Below, one piece after another: positions 23,803 to 27,067 of a stretch of 43,940 nt of DNA (position 1 is the stretch's first letter; each line of letters opens with the position of its first letter). The notes beneath the pieces are model-generated. The model did not search any database, was not told the DNA's origin, and was given only the letters and a program-made list of their open reading frames with translations. The stretch comes from a virus. The position numbers were made by a program, and so were the translations under genes. The stretch spans positions 1 through 43,940 of IMG/VR virus record IMGVR_UViG_3300049791_000040; one strand, given 5' to 3'.

Positions 23803-24108
23803 ATGACCTTCGTGAAGCGACTACTCGCACTGCAGCGACAGGGAAACCTGTCGACTGCGGACCTCCAGCACTGGTTTGACCGTCCGTACTCGACTGTCCG
23901 CTCATGGGTTGTGGACAAGAGGGACCCCCGCTACGCTGGCCGGGAGGGTACTGAGTACTCGCTTCGCCTGCTGCAGCACTGCATCTCACAATTTGAAGGC
24001 CTTCGGGGGGTCTCGTCTCATGAACGGCCAGCACGAATCCGCGCACTCCGAGAGACTGCAGCGGGCGGTCGACTTCCTAAAGCGAGTCCTGCCGCAAGAA
24101 GGGTTTAA
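23803..24108 (+). CDS. HTH DNA-binding protein upstream of primase
   Basis: 101 residues. The N-terminal part contains STADLQHWFDRPYSTVRSWV, a helix-turn-helix often encoded just before phage primases, with a following PRYAGREGTEYSL. The C-terminal 30 residues overlap the primase start region. Possible role: origin recognition or regulation of the replication block. Confidence 0.7.
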   Translation: MTFVKRLLALQRQGNLSTADLQHWFDRPYSTVRSWVVDKRDPRYAGREGTEYSLRLLQHCISQFEGLRGVSSHERPARIRALRETAAGGRLPKASPAARRV

Positions 24109-27067
24109 GTGCGCCTATGTCGTCGACGGGAAAAAGAAGTTCAACCAGTTCTTCGCCACCCACGAAGACCTTGCGCGATTTGTTCTCTGGCAAGATAGCC
24201 TCGATCGAACAGTCTATCACGCCTGCTCCACCTTCACCGCCGGAGTCAGTGATCCCCGAGGTACCCCAGCTGGGCAACGGCGACTCGGTCGAACCCAACA
24301 CAACGTGCTGTCCGTTCAAGCCCTTTGGGCAGATGTCGACTGTGGCGACTCCAAGCACTATTCGGACCAGCAGGACGGGGCCGAGCATGTTGCAGGTTTC
24401 TGCAGAAGAGCTGGTCTTCCATCGCCCTTATATGTTGGCTCGGGTAACGGTCTGCATCTGTATTGGCCGCTGGACGCGCCGCTGGGTCCTGAAGTCTGGC
24501 GACGATATGCGACCGGGCTCGCTAAACTTTTTGCTCACCACGGGCTTCACGTCGACACTGTTCGCACTGCGGATCTATCGTCGGTACTCCGAACTCCCGG
24601 CACCCACCACCGCAAGAACGAAAGCAAGCCTGGCGGCTCAATAAAGGAAGTCGTCGCCGGACCACTCGTCGGTCCCTACCCACTGCAACTTTTCGAGAGG
24701 CTTTTAGATGTCGATCTACATGGGACCAGAGGCCCGCTGCTACCACTGCGGAGCACTGTCGAGCACGCCCCACGACCAGGGATGCGCGGTCAACAAGGGC
24801 ATTCAGCCGCTGCGGACCTCCTCGGAGGACTCTACGACGACCGACCCGCAAGCGCAGAAGCAGTTGCACGAAGTTGCCGACAGATTTATCGCTTACGAGA
24901 AGAACCAGCTGGAGTTAGCGAACCTCTGTGGCATGCAGCTCTCGGCGTTCTGGCCCATTGCACAGACGGCGCTGCTACAGCTCATTCATGGTCTGCTCCA
25001 GAGTGGCATGCAGCCATCGACGACAAGCTCGAACGACTCGCTGGCTTCGGGCCCACCACCTGCGCCAAGTTCGCAAGCCTCAACCCAGCCGGTTGCGTCG
25101 GATGTCCGCACTCAGGACGAATCACATCTCCAATCCAGCTTGGAAGAAACGGACGCGGAGAAAGCGTTCAACCTCTTGCTGACACGAATACAGGAGCTGC
25201 AGGATCAGATCAACATCGTGCAGGAGCAGTTTTATCTCTTGGAGACTTCAACGGATCGAAGACTGACGATGTTGGAGATCGGCTACCAGCGCCTCCAGCA
25301 GACTTCCGCTACGACGCGCAAGGCCAGCTCCACCACATCACCGAAGGCAAAAACGGCGCGGAGTCCTACGACCCCGTCTGCAAGTACCCGATCTACCTCA
25401 AAGCGATCCAGGCGGCCGAAACGGACGACGGCCGGTTCGGTCTCCTCTTCCGCGAAAAGAAACCGCGTCAAGACTGGCGCGATATCGTCGTTACCGCGCG
25501 CCAAGCGGTTGGTCGCGACGCGACTACGGAACTCGCTGAAAGGGGCGTGACCATCCACGACGGCGAGCTCTGGCGCAAGTACGTGCGGAACGCCGTCGAC
25601 CTTTGGCATGAGGAAAATGACGTGGAGAAGCGCTATGACCAGTTCGGATGGAAAGACGGGGAGACCGCATTCCTCGTCGGCAAACGCCTCTACACAGCCA
25701 CAGCGGTTACGCACGCTACGGGATCTCCAACGCTTGAACAGCGTGCGCAGTACCTCTCTGTCCAAAGCAAAAAAGGCGCCTCTCTCGAACGCTGGCAGAA
25801 AGCAGCTAACAAGCTGTTTGCATCGGGCCTTGAGCACCAATCACTCGCTGTGCTTTGCGGTTTCGCTGCTCCTCTCATGCGATTTCACGCGGAAGGAGAG
25901 GGCGGTGCTATCGTCTCTTTTGTCTCAGATCGAACGGCATCAGGAAAGACTACGGCGCTTGAGGCTGCGGCTTCCATCTGGGGGCAGCACAAAGGATTGA
26001 AGCTCGATGAGACTGACACTCGTGTGGCCAAGGGTCTTAAACTTGGTGTTCTCGGAAACCTTCCTTGCACATTTGACGAGCTCCACCAGAGGGACCCGGA
26101 ACTTGTTCGGGAGTTCGTCCTCGTCTTCACCAACGGCACCGACAAGGACCGAGGCACCGCCGAAGGCGGCCTCAAGACCAACAAATCGGAGTGGCAAACG
26201 ATCCTCCTCACCGCGTCGAACACGTCGCTCGTCGACATCCTCTCCAACATGAACGCCTCCGATGCGCCCGCCGCGCGCATCATGGAGTTCACCACAGAGC
26301 TGCCGCCGCACGTCGTCAAGGAAGACTTTGAGGAGATCCGCCGCGAGCTCAACTTCAATCATGGCTTTGCAGGTGACGCGTACCTCAAAAAATTAGTCCA
26401 GCCCGAGATCGTAGAGTGGATACGCTCGAACATTCCGATGTGGTCGGCTATGGTCCGCAAGGCCGCGGGGCTGGAGGAGAAGCACCGGTTCTGGGTGCGC
26501 CTCTTGGTGTCGATCATCGCCGCCGGCAAGATCGTGGAGGGGATGGGCCTCCTGGAGTTCTCGATGGAGCGGCTGACCGCATGGCTGATCGACTATGCCG
26601 CCGAAGGCGCCAGCTCGATCCGCGGCACCGCGCCCAGCGACGCATCTTCGGCGCTGTCGCACGCGCTCTCCGAATTCTACCTGGACACGCTGATCGTGCC
26701 CAACGAGTACAAGCATGGCCAGCGCTCGGCCATCCTGCGCGCGCCATCACGCCAGCTGCTGGTGCGCTACGAGGTGGAGAACAAGCGCCTGTTCCTGTCC
26801 GAGGTCGCGCTGAAGCGCTGGCTGGTGAAGTCGGGCGTCAACACCCGCAATTTCTTCGACACGCTGAAGAAGCAAGGCGTGCTGCTCGGCGAGGTGCGCA
26901 AGGTGACGCTCGGCGCCGGCACGGATCTGGCCTCGGGGCAGACACCGGTCCTCACGGTCAACATGGCCAACCCGCTGGTGTCGGGTGTTGTCGCTTCGCT
27001 CGAGGAGGCGCTGCCCACGCCAGTGGCCAAGACACGCGCTGAACGGATCAAGGAGATGCAGAGATGA
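24020..27067 (+). CDS. primase-helicase fusion (AEP-type primase + DUF927)
   Basis: 1015 residues from ATG 24020. The primase part has ALWADVDCGD (Asp105, Asp107), SGNGLHLYWPLD (His about 147) and ADLSSVLRTPGT, the three archaeo-eukaryotic-primase motifs. Next is a helical Cys-containing module with GPTTCAKFASLNPAGCVGC. The C-terminal half is DUF927-like, with Walker A SDRTASGKTT (about 636-645), CTFDELHQ (about 684) and LLTASNTSLVDI. One protein therefore primes and unwinds. Third-position GC falls sharply between 24.7 and 25.1 kb, where a second reading frame may also be coding. Confidence 0.92.
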   Translation: MNGQHESAHSERLQRAVDFLKRVLPQEGFKCAYVVDGKKKFNQFFATHEDLARFVLWQDSLDRTVYHACSTFTAGVSDPRGTPAGQRRLGRTQHNVLSVQALWADVDCGDSKHYSDQQDGAEHVAGFCRRAGLPSPLYVGSGNGLHLYWPLDAPLGPEVWRRYATGLAKLFAHHGLHVDTVRTADLSSVLRTPGTHHRKNESKPGGSIKEVVAGPLVGPYPLQLFERLLDVDLHGTRGPLLPLRSTVEHAPRPGMRGQQGHSAAADLLGGLYDDRPASAEAVARSCRQIYRLREEPAGVSEPLWHAALGVLAHCTDGAATAHSWSAPEWHAAIDDKLERLAGFGPTTCAKFASLNPAGCVGCPHSGRITSPIQLGRNGRGESVQPLADTNTGAAGSDQHRAGAVLSLGDFNGSKTDDVGDRLPAPPADFRYDAQGQLHHITEGKNGAESYDPVCKYPIYLKAIQAAETDDGRFGLLFREKKPRQDWRDIVVTARQAVGRDATTELAERGVTIHDGELWRKYVRNAVDLWHEENDVEKRYDQFGWKDGETAFLVGKRLYTATAVTHATGSPTLEQRAQYLSVQSKKGASLERWQKAANKLFASGLEHQSLAVLCGFAAPLMRFHAEGEGGAIVSFVSDRTASGKTTALEAAASIWGQHKGLKLDETDTRVAKGLKLGVLGNLPCTFDELHQRDPELVREFVLVFTNGTDKDRGTAEGGLKTNKSEWQTILLTASNTSLVDILSNMNASDAPAARIMEFTTELPPHVVKEDFEEIRRELNFNHGFAGDAYLKKLVQPEIVEWIRSNIPMWSAMVRKAAGLEEKHRFWVRLLVSIIAAGKIVEGMGLLEFSMERLTAWLIDYAAEGASSIRGTAPSDASSALSHALSEFYLDTLIVPNEYKHGQRSAILRAPSRQLLVRYEVENKRLFLSEVALKRWLVKSGVNTRNFFDTLKKQGVLLGEVRKVTLGAGTDLASGQTPVLTVNMANPLVSGVVASLEEALPTPVAKTRAERIKEMQR
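24708..25550 (+). CDS. candidate overprinted gene nested in primase (+1 frame)
   Basis: 280-residue ORF wholly inside the primase gene. ATG 24708 has GAGAGG at 7-base spacing. It begins with a zinc-finger-like ARCYHCGALSSTPHDQGC, then helices (LHEVADRFIAYEKNQLELAN), a Pro/Ser linker and a strong coiled coil (FNLLLTRIQELQDQINIVQE). By hand count, about 78% of third positions are G/C in its first 100 codons, versus about 44% for primase over the same stretch. Other same-strand shadow frames here are Ser/Arg-rich and lack this profile. The last 90 residues are Ser/Thr/Lys/Arg-rich and may be weakly constrained. Expression is not shown. Confidence 0.4.
   Translation: MSIYMGPEARCYHCGALSSTPHDQGCAVNKGIQPLRTSSEDSTTTDPQAQKQLHEVADRFIAYEKNQLELANLCGMQLSAFWPIAQTALLQLIHGLLQSGMQPSTTSSNDSLASGPPPAPSSQASTQPVASDVRTQDESHLQSSLEETDAEKAFNLLLTRIQELQDQINIVQEQFYLLETSTDRRLTMLEIGYQRLQQTSATTRKASSTTSPKAKTARSPTTPSASTRSTSKRSRRPKRTTAGSVSSSAKRNRVKTGAISSLPRAKRLVATRLRNSLKGA

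Follow-up and report, generated by a model that had tools for sequence, protein, structure and literature searches.

In the virus record analysed here, a stretch of 43,940 bases that we refer to as the window over its whole length (WIN in the sequence comparisons), the DNA of the primase-helicase gene very probably codes for two proteins, with a nested gene in the +1 frame beginning at position 24708 and specifying a separate product. Such a gene had been proposed by the initial annotation, and on the comparative evidence that reading appears essentially right. The features expected of an overprinted gene were found together in the putative gene, namely an embedded ORF with its own Shine-Dalgarno (SD) sequence and start, conservation of that start and frame, and a coding-like codon usage. 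The coordinates of the features discussed are collected in Table 1.

Table 1. Features of the primase-helicase gene and of the putative gene nested within it (window coordinates)
Feature	Position	Strand	Basis or remark
Primase-helicase gene containing the nested gene	24020..27067	+	Prim-pol-like N-terminus, DUF927 helicase
Second +1 open stretch, upstream	24117..24644	+	Start and SD not conserved; pLDDT below 90 throughout
Shine-Dalgarno-like GAGAGG, 7 nt 5' of the nested ATG	24695..24700	+	Sequence; SD-like site before the homologous start in relatives
Putative nested gene, 280 codons, wholly within the primase gene, +1 frame	24708..25550	+	ORF, start, relatives, codon scores, predicted structure
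C11-x2-C14-x7-H22-x3-C26, zinc-ribbon/knuckle-like, over variable primase linker 1	24738..24785	+	Pattern recurs in relatives
Predicted helical hairpin, nested residues 47-100	24846..25007	+	AlphaFold helices 47-74 and 78-100, pLDDT mostly 72-88
Disordered Ser/Pro/Thr-rich segment over conserved primase motif CxxCxHSGRITSPIQLG	25008..25139	+	Low pLDDT, no helix at 101-144; primase alignment
Predicted coiled-coil helix, nested residues 145-202, over variable primase linker 2 before DUF927	25140..25313	+	pLDDT 93-97 for most; codon log-ratio
Disordered Ser/Arg/Lys-rich tail	25314..25547	+	pLDDT mostly <50; codon preference back to the primase frame

Besides the primase-helicase, the window holds genes for a DNA polymerase, an exonuclease, a helicase and an integrase, and the nested gene sits in the replication module. 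The open frame of the outer gene runs from TTG 23876 to 27067 (1063 aa), with ATG 24020 as its likely start. Its DUF927 domain was matched with an E value of 5.6e-28, and among the PHROGs it was similar to phrog_25314 (E=3.4e-77) and to the primase/helicase family phrog_8841 (E=1.2e-35); the prim-pol match was weak (E=0.087). A DUF927 domain together with an AEP-like N-terminal domain would place the product among the AEP primase-DUF927 helicases. Primases of annotated phages are at best 24-27% identical to it, over most of the length. Scans in which a single protein, either the primase or the nested protein, served as the query gave no matches; alignment-based scans did find relatives, and a profile scan of viral contigs recovered primases at 75-80% (L004/L128, L129) and many more at 33-46%. 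Sixty primases, no pair of which was more than 85% identical, were used in the shuffle-based comparisons.

The nested ORF was present as it had been described, with its ATG following GAGAGG, and an in-frame TAG directly abuts this ATG. In the first 100 codons the G/C content at third positions (GC3) is 78% in the nested frame and 44% in the primase frame, values at which our recount agreed exactly with the earlier hand count. Nested GC3 is the GC1 of the primase, and 78% still exceeds the GC1 found elsewhere in that gene (61-69%). The accompanying remark on GC3 values of 80-90% elsewhere in the primase held for the last third (87% in 26126-27064) and did not hold for 24026-24706 and 25550-26125, where GC3 is about 60%; thus, the overlap is not the only part with low GC3. 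Across the first two thirds of the primase as a whole GC3 was about 60% or lower, and the step along 23876-27067 suggests either a mosaic origin or dual coding constraints. That the codon statistics favour the nested frame was borne out by a log-ratio of codon usage for which 14 other genes of the phage served as the training set, and on which real genes have a mean of 0.29 (5th percentile 0.02) and ordinary +1 shadows a mean of -0.38 (95th percentile -0.11). Over the first 75 nested codons the log-ratio was +0.21 per codon in the nested frame versus -0.28 in the primase frame. The nested frame was favoured up to about 25345, where the coiled coil ends, with +0.24 for the nested and -0.27 for the primase frame over the coiled-coil region, and the primase frame was preferred from 25346 onwards. 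A protein-like composition of the +1 frame, which was strong at first against the codon pool of the whole gene, was mostly gone when the local codon pool was used and was discarded.

The start of the putative gene has a fixed place in the primases related to that of the window. About 35 codons past the conserved primase motif R-x-P-G-T-x-x-R-K an SD-like sequence is followed by ATG or GTG in the +1 frame (WIN TTCGAGAGGCTTTTAGATG, L139 TTAGGAGAGCTGAATG, L133 TTGGGAGCGTTGAATG, L131 TTGGAAGGGGAAA-ATG; the start codon of L128 is GTG). An SD sequence, an ATG or GTG and a +1 ORF of at least 100 codons were found at the homologous zone in 26 of the 60 non-redundant relatives, compared with 1.35 +/- 1.03 (maximum 5) when codons were shuffled synonymously and with 0/60 in the +2 frame, for a zone and motif that had been spotted before testing and with shuffles that ignore phylogeny. 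In a scan of the whole gene the nested-start zone ranked highest, but the shuffles were exceeded in other zones as well (up to 8/60), so that codon context and common ancestry inflate the z-values. Outside the counted set, an SD sequence and a start were seen in L144, L268 and L256; in the latter two they open ORFs of 171 codons, at relative positions (rel) 35 and 25 respectively, the start of L256 falling 3 codons outside the tested zone. In L359 no long ORF was found at the nested-start zone.

Behind the start the frame stays open. Stop-free +1 runs from the start site extend for 120-290 codons, and between the linkers all relatives together have 20 stops in the +1 frame versus about 57 expected, depletion in the +2 frame being mild. 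Two findings that the initial annotation had listed as arguments against the gene, frequent +1 stops in homologous primases and a nested start that is not conserved, were therefore not borne out, as the frame is depleted of stops and both the start position and the Shine-Dalgarno sequence are kept. Carriers of the trait cluster on a primase tree built without the overlap (6 changes, versus 20 with shuffled labels), and their +1 codon score is raised over rel 34-214; at rel 154-214 it lies at +0.03 to +0.10 in carriers and at -0.19 to -0.24 in non-carriers. In the distant annotated relatives, namely the phages Rollin and RHph_TM3_14A and the plasmid pSTEC648_2, the +1 frame of this region is interrupted by stops, and the nested gene was thus found in no isolate. 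Because the start position, the SD sequence and the open frame are common to primases that are only about 35-45% identical, the putative gene is, by this comparison of sequences, old within this phage primase family. The N-terminal part of its product turns over very fast.

The CxxC-H-C start and the coiled coil that had been noticed in the nested product are both there. A four-ligand pattern of the form C-x2-C-x(3-15)-[CH]-x(1-5)-C occurs at the nested N-terminus in 11 of the 60 primases (500 shuffles gave a mean of 0.55 and at most 4), and in no more than 3 in any other 50-codon zone when all six frames are considered (96 zone-by-frame cells). Besides the window it is carried by L128, L129, L130, L131, L133, L142, L154, L170, L172 and L016, examples being WIN CYHCGALSSTPHDQGC, L129 CYHCGAHGNEPHLDNC, L130 CPYCGSPTNEKHRPNC, L131 CPHCEANPLAEEHRPGC, L154 CPQCQRAFGYHSPNC and L016 CLVCRRPAGSHHPDC; L144, which was examined later and stands outside the counts, has the same pattern (CGHCGANPRLEQFHRAGC). 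CxxC is absent in about half of the carriers of the nested ORF. For nested residues 1-40 neither a zinc-ribbon fold (pLDDT about 50) nor a Pfam profile match was obtained, and the N-terminus is called zinc-like here by its ligand spacing only.

AlphaFold, run on the nested protein with a 30-row alignment, placed 52 residues at pLDDT >=90; the CxxC-H-C region, like the remainder of residues 1-40 and the tail, was not confidently folded. The initial annotation had proposed that overprinting costs least over the unstructured primase linker before DUF927, a view that the prediction supports and extends, as the ordered nested parts lie mostly over both primase linkers and the conserved primase motif between the linkers coincides with a disordered nested segment. 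The two proteins would thus largely divide the DNA, with order in the one set over variable linkers of the other and flexibility over the conserved motif, which may be what makes the overlap tolerable. The tail is probably for the most part a shadow of DUF927 coding. Searches of Pfam and PHROGs with 30 members assigned the nested protein to no family beyond chance-level single matches, and no fold match was found in the PDB and none that was significant in BFVD.

Normal synonymous variability in the primase frame had also been named as an argument against a nested gene, and in the middle of the overlap this is largely what was observed, since variability at fourfold-degenerate sites is no lower in the shared middle region than elsewhere (0.38 vs 0.28-0.51; 0.56 vs 0.51-0.58). 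This lowers our confidence in strong purifying selection on the middle nested amino acids, but not our confidence that the gene exists. In linker 1 and the codons that directly follow, a higher alignment score was obtained for the nested product than for the primase between the window and L129 (112 vs 61) and in the comparisons among L164, L183 and L268 (57/96/87 vs 32/75/55); the last two of these nested alignments have no gaps around LTxTERxxW. In several close pairs it is the primase linker that gives the better alignment, and as the linker turns over quickly, most comparisons across linker 1 hardly rise above noise in any frame. In L138 and L139 (linker 1 at L138:5584 and L139:5584) the primases are 95% identical, the linkers are unrelated and a +1 CxxC is found in both; their linker 1 differs entirely, as if it had been swapped as a cassette. 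From the fourfold-degenerate sites and the mixed pairwise linker scores we conclude that the start, the open frame and the general properties of the product are kept, and that the amino-acid sequence of its middle is under weak constraint only.

In the mechanism that we propose, translation of the +1 frame into a separate protein would begin at an internal site of the primase mRNA, GAGAGG-ATG 24708. From its zinc-like CxxC-H-C N-terminus onwards, this protein would consist of a hairpin of helices, a flexible segment, a coiled coil and, at its end, a basic tail. Such a protein may bind zinc and may oligomerise through its coiled coil. It could act as a small partner made together with the primase-helicase, an adaptor or regulator of the replication complex, a function that we put forward tentatively. 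A role in host interaction, as a takeover or counter-defence protein, is about as possible: the product is related to no replication family in Pfam or PHROGs, and an N-terminal cassette that is wholly different between the near-identical primases of L138 and L139 is what one would expect of arms-race proteins, while the fixed embedding in a primase gene over a deep family and the coiled-coil and zinc-like architecture are also in keeping with a replication partner.

At the nested start site L153 (5602-5697), L169 (5596-5712) and L175 (5629-5715) have +1 ORFs only 29-39 codons long, in part preceded by an SD sequence, which read as single membrane-spanning peptides. A class of such peptides (L153/L169/L175/L177/L148) was considered and set aside as speculation only, as control zones hold as many hydrophobic +1 runs. 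In the helicase part of the relatives, at rel 482-498, there is an excess of SD sequences and starts opening +1 ORFs of at least 60 codons, with 12 in two adjacent bins versus about 0.6 by shuffles. A broader reading, which we consider doubtful, is that the primase-helicase linker serves as a hypervariable cradle for overprinting, in which one conserved internal start would open different +1 proteins in each lineage, mostly zinc-like or helical and in a few, among them L153, L169 and L175, tiny membrane peptides, with recombination exchanging them between primases that are nearly identical. A further gene might then lie in the upstream stretch, giving three proteins from one.

As a gene in its own right, the second +1 stretch to which the initial annotation had pointed was not supported, being without a conserved start, an SD sequence or a confident fold; AlphaFold gave 0 residues at >=90 with an alignment equally deep as that for the nested protein. 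This stretch is probably a shadow, though one depleted of stops (0 stops in the +1 frame at rel -65 to -5 in 30 carriers, where local codon shuffles predict about 31). The nested frame too might be open merely as a by-product of the primase's own composition and amino acids and yield no product, a reading with which agree the similar depletion upstream in a place without a conserved start, the low primase GC3 beyond the overlap, the normal fourfold-site variability and the length of the nested ORF, which taken by itself does not reach significance (p=0.26 when the codons of the single sequence were shuffled synonymously); we nevertheless hold it to be improbable, as it does not account for the conserved position of SD and start, for a four-ligand Cys/His pattern at that start only, for the codon log-ratio and the difference between carriers and non-carriers, or for pairs in which the nested product is better conserved than the primase. 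Least probable, and very unlikely, is that the internal SD-ATG is a device of translation regulation, at which ribosomes pause or re-initiate between the two domains, primase and helicase, with an irrelevant product. The place of the site just past the prim-pol-like domain, its standing as the most constant feature and the fast evolution of the nested amino acids would suit such a device, but it leaves unexplained why the frame is free of stops for 120-290 codons, why CxxC..[CH]..C recurs and why the +1 protein is conserved in L164/L183/L268 and WIN/L129.

Long, fully embedded genes on the same strand are routinely dropped by phage gene callers. The putative nested gene, for which no relatives are recognised, lies in a core replication enzyme and is common to a deep family of uncultured phages. 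If it is translated, it would offer a natural system of two proteins dividing one DNA, with order in one placed over the variable linkers of the other, and would show an overprinted N-terminus turning over fast while the outer enzyme is kept. It would also be a possible new partner of phage primase-helicases.

Overlapping genes are known from other viruses, and in a survey it was reported that longer virus genomes tend to have shorter overlaps (PMC8903798). Among the titles and abstracts that searches of an incomplete collection of open papers brought up, no case within a phage primase was found. Like Rz1 of lambda, the o-spanin embedded in Rz (PMC6139136), the putative gene is a +1 gene wholly embedded in another, over a variable region of the outer product, and of a kind that annotation usually misses; it differs in lying within a primase-helicase gene, in overlapping that gene by 840 nt and in standing outside any lysis context, and inspection of the nested translations revealed neither the signal sequence nor the lipobox of an Rz1-like o-spanin. 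The olg1 and olg2 genes of Pseudomonas phage Fc02 (PMC9936078) are likewise phage ORFs sharing DNA in alternate frames, but they are small, lie in the lysis-lysogeny region outside a primase and have exclusion activity. By its family matches the outer gene shares the architecture of the AEP primase-DUF927 helicases of mobile elements (PrimQH/all3500, PMC5862659), a paper in which a search for the word 'overlapping' gave no result. CCPol-MP of SCCmec (PMC7581432), in which a small protein is the partner of a primase-polymerase on a mobile element, would be an analogue in terms of function only, and MP is encoded by a separate gene in an operon, unlike the embedded gene proposed here. Taken with these systems, the nested gene would be of a known kind, that of embedded overprinting, but placed in a replication enzyme and belonging to an unrecognised family.
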